Part shown: piece by piece, positions 8,978-14,308 of the stretch
Position numbering within the stretch: position 1 is the first letter of the stretch
How the letters are laid out: every line of letters begins with the position of its first letter
Assembly: GCF_010747475.1 (NCBI RefSeq)
Contig: NZ_VSLZ01000003.1
Location: 558,001 to 622,000, forward strand
Reading direction: 5' to 3'
Length of the DNA: 64,000 nucleotides
From: Halorussus sp. MSC15.2
GTDB lineage: Archaea > Halobacteriota > Halobacteria > Halobacteriales > Haladaptataceae
Position numbers and translations under genes: made by a program
Notes under the pieces: model-generated
What the model saw: only the letters and a program-made list of their open reading frames with translations
Told to the model about the DNA's origin: nothing
Databases searched by the model: none

Positions 8978-9568
8978 ATGGCAAAAAGTTTCTACTCCCA
9001 CATCAAGGACGCGTGGAAAGACCCCGGCGACGGCGACCTCGCCGAACTGCAGTGGCAGCGCAAGCAGGACTGGCGCGACCAAGGCGCTATCGAGCGCATC
9101 GAACGCCCGACTCGCCTCGACAAGGCCCGCGAACTGGGCTACAAGGCAAAGCAGGGCGTCGTCCTCGCCCGCGTCAGCGTCCGCAAAGGCTCGGCCCGCA
9201 AGGAGCGGTTCAAGGCGGGCCGACGCTCGAAGCGGCAGGGTGTCAACCGAGTCTACCGACGCAAGAACCTCCAGCGCATCGGTGAGGAGCGCGCCAGTCG
9301 GAAGTACCGCAACCTGCGCGTGCTGAACTCCTACTGGGTCGGCGAAGACGGCAGCCAGAAGTGGTTCGAAGTGATTCTGCTGGACCCGGAGCATCCGGCC
9401 ATCGAGAACGACGACGACCTCAACTGGATTTGCGACGACTCCCACAAGGGCCGGGCCTTCCGCGGCCTGACCAGCGCCGGAAAGAGCAACCGCGGACTCC
9501 AGCAGCGCGGCAAGGGCACGGAACACACCCGCCCGAGCAACAACGGCGGTCAGGGTCGCGGGAAGTAA
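8978..9568 (+). CDS. rpl15e: 50S ribosomal protein L15e
   Basis: 196 residues, the usual length, beginning MAKSFYSHIKDAWKDP, with the conserved basic core (LGYKAKQGVVLARVSVRKG, about 50-70) and RKYRNLRVLNSYWVGEDG near 108. The protein is rich in Arg/Lys at rRNA-contact positions, unlike its acidic neighbours. L15e is an archaeal/eukaryotic-type component of the large subunit that binds 23S rRNA. GGTGAT is the ribosome-binding site. The gene stands alone behind a structured leader and is not in a ribosomal-protein operon here. Confidence 0.98.
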   Translation: MAKSFYSHIKDAWKDPGDGDLAELQWQRKQDWRDQGAIERIERPTRLDKARELGYKAKQGVVLARVSVRKGSARKERFKAGRRSKRQGVNRVYRRKNLQRIGEERASRKYRNLRVLNSYWVGEDGSQKWFEVILLDPEHPAIENDDDLNWICDDSHKGRAFRGLTSAGKSNRGLQQRGKGTEHTRPSNNGGQGRGK

Positions 9569-9700
9569 CGTCTACTCCATTTCGTTCCATTCTTCGGCCG
9601 GTATCGGACCCGACAGCGGCGGGAGAACATGTAATCGTGGGTCGCTACGCGACCGTCGAAAAGAACTCGGTCCGAGGACTCGGAGCCGCCTGATTTCGGT

Positions 9701-9817
9701 TCAGTAGCAACAGGGGTCCGCGCACGTGTACGACGGACAAGCGGCGGCACCATCGTCGAAGTCGTTGTTGGTGTCGAACTCTGCGTCGAACTGGGAGCGA
9801 AGGTCGTCTCGGTTCAT
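9701..9817 (-). CDS. lanA: Putative class II lanthipeptide precursor (LanA)
   Basis: 38 codons between ATG at 9817 and TGA. Residues 1-26 form an acidic leader (MNRDDLRSQF at the start, 7 Asp among the first 22, ending DDGAAA), and residues 27-38 form a Cys-rich core CPSYTCADPCCY. The core has one Ser (29) and one Thr (31), which LanM could dehydrate, and four Cys (27, 32, 36, 37), so up to two (methyl)lanthionine rings are possible with Cys to spare. The DGAAA stretch resembles a double-glycine-like cleavage boundary. The gene is downstream of and on the same strand as lanM, behind its own AT-rich promoter. Cysteine is rare in the exported proteins of this window. No export or protease gene adjoins it. 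Function as a precursor is inferred from composition and linkage. Confidence 0.72.
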   Translation of the reverse strand: MNRDDLRSQFDAEFDTNNDFDDGAAACPSYTCADPCCY

Positions 9818-9975
9818 GAGTATCACTTAGGCACCTGTTACCACGGCGCCCATAGAGACGGTTACTCCGGCCATACTTGAATTTTTCTAATACTTAATTT
9901 ATTAATTTAATATTTGAACGATTCAGGCGTTTTCTCTGTTGTGTTACTAAACGCGGGAGCAGAGAGTCCGAGAAG
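9818..9975 (-). promoter_or_regulatory. AT-rich promoter between lanM and lanA
   Basis: The 158 bases contain an unusually AT-rich tract (about 9880-9915) within GC-rich surroundings, including the tandem direct repeat TTAATTTA at 9894-9901 and 9902-9909. Read on the minus strand it offers several TATA-like boxes (for example AAATTAAGTATTAG), which would start a transcript around 9865 with a leader of about 45 bases. GTGAT lies just before the lanA ATG. It implies that lanA can be expressed independently of lanM. Confidence 0.5.
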
Positions 9976-12900
9976 TCACTCCCAGAGGAGAGCGCAGGGG
10001 AGCGCCTCGGGGTTGTTCGCCCGCAACATCGTGTATCCGATTCCCGAGAGTCCGAGGAAGAACGTCGGGTCGGGCACTTCACGGGTCTTCGCGTGGACGC
10101 AGTACGTTCCGGTTTCGCGCTTCCGGGCGAGGACGCCGCCGAGGAGACTACGCGCTTCACTGGACCGGCGGCCGAGTCGCTGCTCGGTTTCGAGCAGGAA
10201 CTCGGCCCGACCGGCGTTCCCACAGCAGAGGTGGTCGAGGTCGTGGAGGTCTCCGGACGGGAAGCTTTCGACCGCGCGTTCGAGACCCCGCTCGGCCCGG
10301 TCGTCGGTGACGTACTCCGTCATGCCGAGGCGAGAGAGACCGACGCCGCTCCGACCGTGACACCACTGGTCGGGGAACTGCGTCATCTGTTCGACGTCTC
10401 GGTAGTTGGGCCAGTTTTGCTCCGACTCGGAGAACGCCCGCGACTCGAATTCGAGCGCTTCCAGCGCGGCCTTCCGGTATTCGGAGCGACCGGTCGCGTC
10501 CGAGAGACGGACCAGCGCGTACGCGATGCCGCCGACTCCGTGCGCGAACCCGACCAGCGGCGTGGTCTCGTCCACGGTCTTCCAGACGGGAACGCCACCC
10601 TCGGACTCGACGCGCGAGTCGAGGAGGTGGTCGCCACATTCGACCGCGGCCTCCAGCAACGCGAGTGACTCCCGCCGGTCGTACAGTGCGAGCAGGCCGA
10701 GAATCGTGCCAGCGCTCCCGCCGACCACATCGTAGGTCTCGTCCACCTCGACGACTTCTGGCGTAAGCAAATCGGCCACCTTCGTCGCGTCGGCCAAGAG
10801 GTCGGCGTCTCCCAGCAGGTCGGCGGTCACTCCGAGACCGTAGGCAACCGCGCCGATACCGGTCGTGCCACCGGAGTTCCGTGGTGTAAGCAGGTCGTCG
10901 TCCGACCGAAGCGCGTCGCGGACGGGACCGACGGCGTCGAGCGCGAACTCCCGATATCGTTCCTCGCCGGTCACGCGGTAGAGACCAGCACCGAACAGTC
11001 CGATTCCGCACCGGCCGATGTACAGCGACCCGTAAGCCGGTCGGAGCGAGAACGGGTCTCGGTCGTCCTGACTCCCGGTCTGTGGCTCTATCGAGGCCCA
11101 ATGATACGTCCCGTCCTCGGTCTCGAACGCCGCCCCTTCGACCCGGTCGAACAGGTCGGTCGCCTCGCGTTGGAGTCGTTCGCCGTCCACCGATTCGTAG
11201 CCGACCGACGACTGAGTTCCGGGAGTCGCATCCGGGTTCGGGACTGCGGCGAGGCTACCGCGGACGAGTTCGACCTGCTCGCGCATGTCCGACCGGGAAG
11301 CCGACTCGATACGACGCCGAGCGCGACTGATTCCCGACGCGTCGGCCTCGACATCTATCGGCGATTCCCGAATTCGGAGCGCGGTCTCATCGGTTCGGCA
11401 GGTGAACCGCGGCGGGTCGAGGCGCTTCAGCACCCGCATCTCGGCGTCGCAGAGCGGCCACGGTTTCGGGTCGCCGATTCGCCCGTTGCAGAACGGGACG
11501 GCCAACTCCTCCATCTCGATGCCGAACCGCGCCCCGTCTTCGAGACACGACCGAGAAGTCATCGACTTGACGAGGGCGCCGTACTCCAACGTCGGTCGGT
11601 AGACGACCCGATTTTCGACCGACTCGAACGCGTCGAGGAGACCGATTTCGTCGGCCAATCGCCCATCGTCGTGCAACTCCAGCACGGTCTCGTAGGTCGT
11701 CTCGAAGCCGTCTACGATGGTGTCCAGATACTCGTCCGGTGAGTGCGGTTCGCCGTCCACGGTCGGCACGTTCTCGCTCCGGTCCACGCTCGGTGACTCC
11801 TCTACGACCGACATCACGTCGGTGTCGGCGGCCACGATACGGGGATAAGAGGACCCCTCGCGTTCGACTTCCTCCCCGGAGACGGCGATGCCCGAAGTCG
11901 CTTTCAGCATCTCGAAATCGAGGTCGGCGCTGGCGTTCCGGACGCCGTAGGGGAGAAGCAGCGTCAAGAGGACGCTATCGTCTCTGAGCGCTCCGACCCC
12001 GGTCCGCGACGGCCGTCGGTGCGACCCGACGTAGGGATGGAGGACGGTTTCGGCGTCCACCAGCGTCGGGTGTTCGCCCGCCGTGACGAGGTTCTCGATT
12101 TGGCAGTCTCGGAATTCGAGGAAGTAGGCGACGCAGACGAGCGCACCTGCCCGCTGGTAGTAGCGTTCGACGGCCTCACGGTCGGCGCAGTCGTCGCGTT
12201 CGACCCACTCCATCCACCCGTAGCCGTCGCCTGCGACGTACGTCGGCGTCTCGAAGTCGGGAACCGAAAGGTAGTCGTTCAGGCGGTCGAGTATGCGATA
12301 AAACGTCTCTCCAGCGGTGACGCTCCGGGGCTTGTACGCGACAGTAACGCCGGAATCGAACGCTATGCGCATCACCGCGCGGCCATCACCGTGGGTGTCG
12401 TCGGCGAGCGGTTCGAGGGTCGTCACCGCTCCCAGTTCGCCGGTCACGCCGAACTCGTCGGCGAGTCGGTCTCGGTCGGCGCGCAGTCGACGGGAGAACT
12501 CCCGAAGATGTTCGTCCCATTGGCGAATTTGCGTGGCGAGCAATCGGGCGAACACCGGATATCGCTGACAGAGTTCGGCCAGTCCGCCGGTGAACAGGTG
12601 GTTCACGAACTGCTCGTAGTATTCGGTCGGCGGTTCGTCGAACTCGTCCGGGTCCGCAAACGCCAATTCGCGGTCGTGAGACGCGACGAACGTCTTGAAC
12701 TCGACGTAGAGAACCCGCAGAAACCAACTCTCGAACCGATTCCGGAGCCACTCTGCCATCGTTCCGATGGCTTCCGCAGAAAGCGCGTCCCGAACGGGGT
12801 CTTCGGGGAGTCGGTCGCGGGCGTACGCCGCGACTGCGGCCGAGAGTTCGGCGAAGCGCCGTTCTCGCTCTCGTTCGTCACCAAGTTCGCCGTTCGACCC

Positions 12901-13248
12901 CCGGTCCGGGCCGAAACTCTCGGGCAGGTCGTCGGGGTCGAACTCCTGTACCACGCCGACGAGTTCTTCGAGGCGTTCGACCCACTCGGGGAGCGGTTCG
13001 TCCTCGGCCAGTTTCTCCGACCGAATCGACTCCCGACAGACGTCTTCGGTCACTTCGAGGCGGTCGAGTCGCTGGCTAAATGCCTCGTCGTCGGGAAATC
13101 GCTCGCGCCATTCCTCGAGGAGTTCCTCCACCTCGGACTCGTCCCGGCCGGTCGGTTCGAGTGCGTCAGGGTCGGCTAGCCGTTCGTGGAGCGTCCGTGC
13201 ACGTCCGGCGAGGACGCGCTTCTGCTCGCTATCGAAAACGTCGTTCAT
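9976..13248 (-). CDS. lanM: Class II lanthipeptide synthetase LanM (CCG zinc-site type)
   Basis: 1090 residues, a full-length bifunctional LanM. The N-terminal dehydratase domain (DUF4135, roughly 200-600) shows the kinase-like motifs VAYKPRS (Lys306), RDCQIEN (381-386) and LVDAETVLHP; it would phosphorylate and eliminate Ser/Thr in the precursor. The C-terminal LanC-like cyclase domain (about 720-1090) has the alpha/alpha-barrel GxG repeats, WCHGRSG (Cys963) and LCCGNAG (Cys1008-Cys1009), giving a three-Cys zinc site rather than the usual Cys-Cys-His. No peptidase domain or transmembrane segment is present, so action is cytosolic. GAGAGG precedes the ATG and TTTACTTATTTC at 13310-13321 is a likely TATA region. 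The precursor gene follows 158 bases downstream; no transporter or immunity gene is adjacent. Confidence 0.92.
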   Translation of the reverse strand: MNDVFDSEQKRVLAGRARTLHERLADPDALEPTGRDESEVEELLEEWRERFPDDEAFSQRLDRLEVTEDVCRESIRSEKLAEDEPLPEWVERLEELVGVVQEFDPDDLPESFGPDRGSNGELGDERERERRFAELSAAVAAYARDRLPEDPVRDALSAEAIGTMAEWLRNRFESWFLRVLYVEFKTFVASHDRELAFADPDEFDEPPTEYYEQFVNHLFTGGLAELCQRYPVFARLLATQIRQWDEHLREFSRRLRADRDRLADEFGVTGELGAVTTLEPLADDTHGDGRAVMRIAFDSGVTVAYKPRSVTAGETFYRILDRLNDYLSVPDFETPTYVAGDGYGWMEWVERDDCADREAVERYYQRAGALVCVAYFLEFRDCQIENLVTAGEHPTLVDAETVLHPYVGSHRRPSRTGVGALRDDSVLLTLLLPYGVRNASADLDFEMLKATSGIAVSGEEVEREGSSYPRIVAADTDVMSVVEESPSVDRSENVPTVDGEPHSPDEYLDTIVDGFETTYETVLELHDDGRLADEIGLLDAFESVENRVVYRPTLEYGALVKSMTSRSCLEDGARFGIEMEELAVPFCNGRIGDPKPWPLCDAEMRVLKRLDPPRFTCRTDETALRIRESPIDVEADASGISRARRRIESASRSDMREQVELVRGSLAAVPNPDATPGTQSSVGYESVDGERLQREATDLFDRVEGAAFETEDGTYHWASIEPQTGSQDDRDPFSLRPAYGSLYIGRCGIGLFGAGLYRVTGEERYREFALDAVGPVRDALRSDDDLLTPRNSGGTTGIGAVAYGLGVTADLLGDADLLADATKVADLLTPEVVEVDETYDVVGGSAGTILGLLALYDRRESLALLEAAVECGDHLLDSRVESEGGVPVWKTVDETTPLVGFAHGVGGIAYALVRLSDATGRSEYRKAALEALEFESRAFSESEQNWPNYRDVEQMTQFPDQWCHGRSGVGLSRLGMTEYVTDDRAERGLERAVESFPSGDLHDLDHLCCGNAGRAEFLLETEQRLGRRSSEARSLLGGVLARKRETGTYCVHAKTREVPDPTFFLGLSGIGYTMLRANNPEALPCALLWE

Positions 13249-13474
13249 AGCCTCTCACTCCCGGTATTTTCGTTCGGTATCGGGGACACGGAGGAAATAT
13301 TACAGGGTAGAAATAAGTAAATTTCTCTAGTTAGAACTTTTCTACGTGCCGTCAGAGTGAGGGGAATATTCGCTCGCGGCGGAGAGGGTTAGCGCGGAGA
13401 CTTCGACCGGTGAATCCGGGAGCCTCCGAATCTCCGACCGCGGATTTATACCTGAAAGCGCCTAACCCCCGGCT

Positions 13475-14308
13475 ATGAGTCTCTCGCTGGACCCGACGCA
13501 ACTCGACCGCTACTCCCGGCACATCATCATGGACGAGGTGGGACCGGAGGGCCAGCAAGCCCTGCTCGACGCCGCCGTGCTGGTAATCGGCGCGGGCGGA
13601 CTGGGCGCGCCGGTCGTCCAGTACCTCGCGGCCGCGGGCGTGGGCACACTCGGCGTCGCCGACGACGACGAAGTCGAACTGAGCAACCTCCAGCGCCAGA
13701 TAATCCACGGCAACGACGACGTGGGCCGCCCGAAAGTCGAGTCGGCGGCCGACTTCGTGGCCGACCTCAACCCCGACGTGGACGTGCAGACCCACGAGGT
13801 CCGAGTCGAACCCGACAACGTGGAGGACCTCGTCGCCGACTACGACTTCGTTGTGGACGCCACCGACAACTTCCGGACGCGCTACCTCGTCAACGACGCC
13901 TGCACGCTCTCGGGCACGCCGTTCTCCCACGGCGCTATCTACAAGTTCGAGGGGCAGGTCACCACGTTCACCACGGAGGGACCGTGCTACCGGTGTCTGT
14001 TCCCCGAAGCGCCCCCCGAGGGGATGGTCGCCGACTGCGCGAGTACCGGCGTGCTGGGCGTCCTCCCCGGCACTATCGGTAACATTCAGGCCACCGAGAC
14101 GGTCAAGTACCTGCTCTGCGAGGGCGCAGGTCTCGACGCGGCCGAACTGCTCGACGGCCGGATGGTGTTCTACGACGCGATGGCGATGTCGTTCGAGGAA
14201 GTCGAGTTCCGTCAGAATCCCGACTGCCCGGTCTGCGGCGACGACCCCATCGAAACGCTTTCGCAGGTGGAGTACGCCGAGGAGTCCTGCCCGGTGAACG
14301 CCGACTGA
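13475..14308 (+). CDS. ubaA: SAMP-activating E1-like enzyme UbaA (MoeB/ThiF family)
   Basis: 277 residues. An N-terminal Arg-rich adenylation segment (RYSRHIIMDEVGPEGQ) precedes the Rossmann motif VIGAGGLGAPV and the DDDEVELSNLQRQI segment that contacts ATP. The active-site cysteine is probably in VADCASTGVLGVLPG, and paired CYRCLF and CPVCGDD supply the zinc ligands. In haloarchaea this E1 adenylates the ubiquitin-like SAMP proteins, serving protein sampylation as well as tRNA thiolation and molybdopterin sulfur transfer. TTTATACC at 13445-13452 lies 27 bases before the ATG, giving a leaderless mRNA. It is divergent from lanM; a functional link between the two is not indicated. Confidence 0.93.
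   Translation: MSLSLDPTQLDRYSRHIIMDEVGPEGQQALLDAAVLVIGAGGLGAPVVQYLAAAGVGTLGVADDDEVELSNLQRQIIHGNDDVGRPKVESAADFVADLNPDVDVQTHEVRVEPDNVEDLVADYDFVVDATDNFRTRYLVNDACTLSGTPFSHGAIYKFEGQVTTFTTEGPCYRCLFPEAPPEGMVADCASTGVLGVLPGTIGNIQATETVKYLLCEGAGLDAAELLDGRMVFYDAMAMSFEEVEFRQNPDCPVCGDDPIETLSQVEYAEESCPVNAD

Follow-up and report, generated by a model that had tools for sequence, protein, structure and literature searches.

Class II lanthipeptides, among them the archalans and larlans (2023-2025), are established in haloarchaea, and no genus is richer in them than Halorussus. A number have been isolated, some with inhibitory activity against other haloarchaea, and certain clusters increase motility (PMC10105419, PMC12144867, PMC9953058). 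Anti-haloarchaeal activity is known for archalan alpha and medlan B, and the cib2 and pel clusters, when expressed, raised motility and archaellin expression (PMC12144867). One strain, Halorussus salinus YJ-37-H, has six lanthipeptide clusters (PMC10105419, PMC12144867). Here we analyse a locus of this kind in Halorussus sp. MSC15.2, composed of the synthetase gene lanM and a small gene, lanA. It is located in a stretch of 64,000 nucleotides (contig NZ_VSLZ01000003.1, positions 558,001 to 622,000), referred to as the window. A preliminary description of this DNA recognised a minimal archaeal lanthipeptide locus with a LanM; synthetase domains, catalytic residues, leader homology, core similarity and an empty site in a relative all agree with this. 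Its remark that haloarchaeal lanthipeptides had only recently been noticed needs correction in that the kind is already established and chemically verified (PMC10105419, PMC12144867). Judged from sequence, the locus has every feature of the established haloarchaeal class II lanthipeptides. Very probably, lanM and lanA are a class II lanthipeptide cassette of two genes that was acquired horizontally, the full account of modification, export and role given below included.

The nearest characterised analogue is archalan gamma from H. salinus YJ-37-H (Song et al. 2025). Its core, CSCYTRICCDIDS, starts at a Cys after ...RA and carries a lanthionine 2-3, a methyllanthionine 5-9 and a disulfide 1-8 (PMC12144867). 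The two systems share genus and class II LanM, and both have a short core with Ser near its start, central Tyr-Thr, Cys-Cys and four Cys in total. The exact archalan alpha, beta and gamma cores, together with the SalA core, occur in another genome of the genus (G118), which has six or more LanM places; the archalan gamma precursor and a LanM were found there. In contrast to archalan gamma, the predicted core of the window locus is CPSYTCADPCCY, and ring positions are not transferable between the two. Since the LanMs belong to separate clades and the precursors are 18% identical in alignment, the window product is not a member of the archalan gamma family and at most works like it.

The second system, larlan A2 (LarA-LarM), is alike in that two genes suffice for a trace product. 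In Haloferax volcanii, larA and larM on their own yielded mature larlan in trace amounts, with proteolysis attributed to general proteases (PMC12144867); a two-gene unit is thus workable. LarM was identified via LarA core segments from PMC12144867, which were found in the adjoining LanA. It has the same DCQxEN active-site variant as the window LanM, and the LarA leader is similarly acidic (YDQQFDD). On the contrary, the larlan core is a different one with three methyllanthionine residues, a third gene, larH, boosts the yield (PMC12144867), and LarM falls outside the clade of the window LanM. New in the present locus are the core, the uncharacterised LanM clade and the demonstration, from an empty site, that the acquired unit comprises enzyme and substrate and nothing else.

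The LanM synthetase and its precursor

The locus and its borders comprise the following features (window positions; basis of assignment in brackets):
9976..13248, minus strand: lanM, class II lanthipeptide synthetase of 1090 amino acids (TIGR03897, Pfam, alignment with LicM2 6st5 and CylM 5dzt, motif positions)
9701..9817, minus strand: lanA, precursor of 38 amino acids with leader 1-26, containing the DLRSQFDAEFD motif, and predicted core 27-38 (leader profile, BLASTP, alignments)
9818..9975, minus strand: lanM-lanA intergenic region, 158 bp, 42% G+C, with an A/T-rich tract directly 3' of the lanM stop (composition, sequence)
9569..13429, no strand: insert, absent at the empty site in genome G176, containing lanM and lanA only (blastn of G176; gene spacing in 16 relatives)
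8978..9568, plus strand: left boundary gene rpl15e, ribosomal protein L15e (Pfam Ribosomal_L15e; 88-100% identity in 16 Halorussus relatives)
13475..14308, plus strand: right boundary gene of the ThiF family (UbaA/MoeB-like; ubaA) (Pfam ThiF; 86-97% identity in 16 Halorussus relatives)

On the minus strand, the 1090-codon lanM is followed after 158 bp by the 38-codon lanA. Both open reading frames (ORFs) lie exactly where the preliminary description had placed a complete LanM and a tiny precursor gene. The lanM frame has an ATG start and no internal stop, and its product scores 746 bits against TIGR03897 (model cut-off 304). The N-terminal DUF4135 dehydratase (322 bits, residues 229-616) and C-terminal LANC_like cyclase (193 bits, residues 739-1087) confirm the single-protein LanM architecture with its full domain set. 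The protein aligns with the solved structure of LicM2 (6st5) over most of its length and with CylM (5dzt) in part. Catalytic residues were found at DTH 284-286, Lys306, Asp381, Asn386, Asp398/Glu400, Arg547, Thr553, Cys963, Cys1008 and Cys1009; we take their roles in phosphorylation, elimination and zinc binding to be those assigned after the CylM structure.

Domain order and most catalytic residues are thus common to CylM, LicM2 and the window LanM. Two positions differ. All but one of the CylM dehydratase residues are conserved, Gln383 standing in place of the catalytic-loop His, and the zinc triad (QWCHG and LCCGNAG) is of the CCG rather than CHG type, with Cys1009 in place of the third-ligand His. 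The same Gln is common among haloarchaeal LanMs and is present in LarM. Since LarM has a chemically verified product (PMC12144867), we do not count Gln383 as inactivating, and the idea of a dead enzyme was rejected. The CCG motif occurs in nearly all haloarchaeal LanMs, where it is known to be usual (PMC10027976), and for this reason was not used as a sign of ProcM-like promiscuity.

The lanA product, MNRDDLRSQFDAEFDTNNDFDDGAAACPSYTCADPCCY (ATG start, 38 amino acids), has eight Asp/Glu against two Arg ahead of the core, and Ser29, Thr31 and Cys27, 32, 36 and 37. The acidic leader and Cys-rich core with Ser29 and Thr31, proposed earlier, are therefore borne out. No Gly-Gly is found ahead of the core. 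An alternative GTG start three codons upstream would give 41 amino acids; directly before this GTG there is an in-frame TAA. The length of the peptide is not unusual, because LanAs of 37-41 amino acids are also present at other haloarchaeal loci.

For a leader profile we used 26 LanA-like peptides encoded next to other haloarchaeal LanMs and left the window peptide out. When 590 window ORFs were searched with it, lanA ranked first with an expectation value (E) of 2.8e-4, as opposed to 4.3 for the runner-up, and a chance ORF was rejected on this basis. In single pairwise BLASTP comparisons, lanA aligns with both LanAs of genome G338. The first matches over leader and core (E 1e-7; window DLRSQFDAEFDTN...ACPSYTCADPC, G338 DLKSEFDSEFKTN...KCPTAICTSGC), the second mainly in the leader (E 3e-8). 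The pattern D-L-K/R-x-x-F-D-x-x-F is common to leaders in the clade of the window LanM. As in haloarchaeal-type LanAs, a short acidic leader with aromatic-acidic motif precedes a C-terminal core of Ser/Thr and Cys (CPSYTCADPCCY). By these comparisons the small frame is identified as a LanA precursor, not a chance frame. No further LanAs were found in the window, and a genome-wide profile search with clade LanAs matched only the lanA frame. The exact core string had no match in the main texts of the papers searched; supplementary precursor tables may list it.

A separate lanA promoter may exist inside 9818..9975. A sigma-70-type scan of this intergenic region gave no match, this model being of bacterial type and not applicable to archaea, and promoter, terminator and RNA folding analyses around lanA were not informative.

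The insertion site and the LanM clade

Both rpl15e and the ThiF-family gene were found in 16 Halorussus relatives, and in every one they are neighbours, spaced by 87-286 bp in eleven and by 659-2468 bp in five. G176, the nearest relative, has an empty gap of 286 bp, compared with 3.9 kb in the window. The blastn match between G176 and the window runs up to 9567 and resumes at about 13431, with nucleotide identity of 98% and 95% on the two sides. Because this empty site bounds a 3.9-kb insert that holds only lanM and lanA, the locus consists of two genes; the earlier statement that only these two appear stands, as the insert has no other recognisable gene and the window no lanthipeptide-type exporter. 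The left edge is located only as somewhere 3' of the rpl15e stop. The insertion boundaries are established, as are the genes, their homology, the active-site residues and the conservation of leader and core.

No transposon-type terminal repeats were recognised in the insert, and short repeat matches resemble those arising by chance in coding DNA rich in G+C. G+C content is 0.654 in lanM and 0.659 in the window; at third positions, lanM has 0.79 compared with 0.85-0.89 in neighbouring genes. The five wider gaps in relatives contain ORFs unrelated to lanM. From the comparison of these sites we conclude that this lineage acquired lanM and lanA together, loss in all other relatives being less economical.

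The site (9569-13474) is variable in Halorussus: three of the five relatives with 0.7-2.5 kb carry an ORF of 251-282 amino acids, apparently a membrane protein by sequence.

The window LanM is placed in a haloarchaeal clade of eight members (support 100/100) from genomes of three families, which fits horizontal transfer. None of the placeable verified cores falls in this clade, which is thus uncharacterised. LanMs of the seven relatives (G338, G145, G058, G066, G103, G024 and G317) are 49-56% identical to that of the window, G338 being the closest found (56%). LanAs with DLK..FDxEF-type leaders are present beside the LanMs of G338, G145, G058 and G066; no LanA of G103 passed the filters. The small frame hence has counterparts beside related lanM genes, and the lack of such linkage, named in the preliminary description as grounds for refutation, was not found. 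The number of LanAs ranges from one in the window over two in G338 to at least six in G058, and in the closest relatives some of them, in several copies, are 1-6 kb away from lanM.

Two arrangements within the clade were observed in addition. The G058 LanAs (L038 377-2654) form a tandem array of at least six, their leaders alike and their Cys-rich cores divergent. The array lies 4-6 kb from a lanM that shares 56% identity with that of the window, and may be an archaeal lanthipeptide set that generates diversity. In two genera, genes near clade LanMs (L041 3533-3703, L160 4652-4840) encode LanA-like peptides that contain a long Thr-Val run (TITTTTTVTVTTTTSAPFSCSC). If modified, they would give an extremely dehydrobutyrine-rich product.

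A split synthetase in the same genome

A second lanthipeptide locus (G000:C6, L055 6437-9657, minus strand) has a split synthetase, composed of a stand-alone DUF4135 dehydratase (671 amino acids) and a stand-alone LanC (402 amino acids) whose ORFs overlap by 4 nt (stop/start). The dehydratase half alone scores above the LanM model cut-off. The locus also includes two tandem LanAs (9829-10157) of another leader type, SVDQFExKHxRD, and an ATP-binding cassette (ABC) exporter. Split synthetases as two adjacent ORFs were further found in G219, G250, G008, G114 and G380, and G250 has a further, more distant case. As the split is kept in six genomes of five families, the present one included, sequencing error is very unlikely. 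The phrase "split LanM" had no match in the papers searched. The split class II synthetases form a conserved clade, with one member in this genome, and are perhaps of more interest to specialists than the window locus. In G219 the split synthetase is adjoined by a DUF6895 protein, and ORFs with segments similar to it are neighbours of the split synthetases in G114 and the present genome. The positions concerned are L082 4330-5715, L081 4643-5986 and possibly L055 5432-6334. A role in immunity or maturation is possible.

Maturation, export and competing explanations

How the lanA product is modified, bridged, cleaved and exported, and what it does, we infer as follows. LanM would bind the acidic leader through the DLRSQFDAEFD segment, and phosphorylation and elimination would convert Ser29 to dehydroalanine and Thr31 to dehydrobutyrine. 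The zinc cyclase (Cys963, Cys1008, Cys1009) would then add two of the four Cys, giving two thioether rings, and the remaining two Cys would probably pair as a disulfide, comparable to archalan gamma. General host proteases would cut the leader near the boundary between GAAA and Cys; proteases encoded outside the clusters are suspected in leader removal (PMC12144867). Because the archalan gamma core starts at a Cys, cleavage before Cys27 is a reasonable guess. Release of the peptide, about 12 residues long, would fall to an ABC-2-type exporter whose genes lie elsewhere or to the general export routes of the cell. By analogy, the peptide would likely act against a narrow range of other haloarchaea or modulate motility.

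Bacterial-type class II clusters have a LanT with peptidase C39 and a double-Gly site. The window locus has neither, and neither is required in haloarchaeal loci. In agreement with the preliminary description, no dedicated exporter was found in the window, where the sole ATPase match is 46 kb away and 23-25% identical, and no peptidase C39 (PF03412, LanT type) was detected in the genome. The absence of LanT is not remarkable, as roughly one in two of the haloarchaeal lanM loci sampled have no ABC exporter permease nearby. The genome holds four exporter permeases of the lanM-linked family. The most similar pair (G000:C1:1372190-1374141, L166) is 60/63% identical to the pair near the G338 LanM and has no lanM near it. 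The exporter on contig C6 is also possible as a partner of lanA, but less similar (43/52%); neither was assigned.

Several points weigh against a functional cassette of this kind. An ABC-2 exporter pair is located near lanM in five of the seven clade relatives, whereas the window has none. The lanA leader is N-terminally about 15-20 residues shorter than those of its closest relatives and is devoid of their MSxTQxSxGMxY stretch. The C1 exporter pair is present across most Halorussus genomes, also in those without LanM, and because of this it is only a candidate partner. Loss of the exporter by a decaying locus is a further, though improbable, possibility. Only tentatively, and with more doubt than confidence, do we extend the cassette to a portable module of two genes beside a ribosomal protein gene, matured wholly by host proteases and the genus-wide ABC exporter into a small bis-thioether disulfide peptide with an undescribed ring pattern.

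The best surviving alternative, unlikely though deserving consideration, is that the product is not an antagonist; it would act inside the cell or as a signal, influence motility or cell shape, and require no exporter of its own. The insert without exporter or immunity gene and the effects of the cib2 and pel clusters (PMC12144867) are consistent with this, but an exporter is usually found close to related loci of the clade, and both archalan alpha and medlan B act against haloarchaea (PMC12144867). We give distinctly less credit to a degenerating, now non-functional locus that has lost its exporter, accessory genes and longer leader. Most clade relatives do have exporter and longer leaders, and the in-frame stop shortly before the lanA start would fit as well; however, G066, a clade locus with intact genes, is likewise without a nearby exporter (near lanM of G103, there are only ATPases towards the region edge). 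That lanM is real and the 38-residue frame is a chance ORF or relic, with true precursors elsewhere in the genome, would accord with its shortness and with the distant, multiple LanAs of closest relatives, but is very improbable given the leader profile result, the genome-wide match to lanA only (LanAs of the second locus having another leader type), the resemblance of the core to a G338 LanA and the position of lanA as sole other gene of the insert.

Few archaeal antimicrobial or signalling peptides are verified; as a horizontally acquired cassette, the locus would extend them by an uncharacterised core and an uncharacterised LanM clade. Being a naturally minimal unit, it would also be a clean system in which to identify the host proteins responsible for maturation and export of haloarchaeal lanthipeptides.

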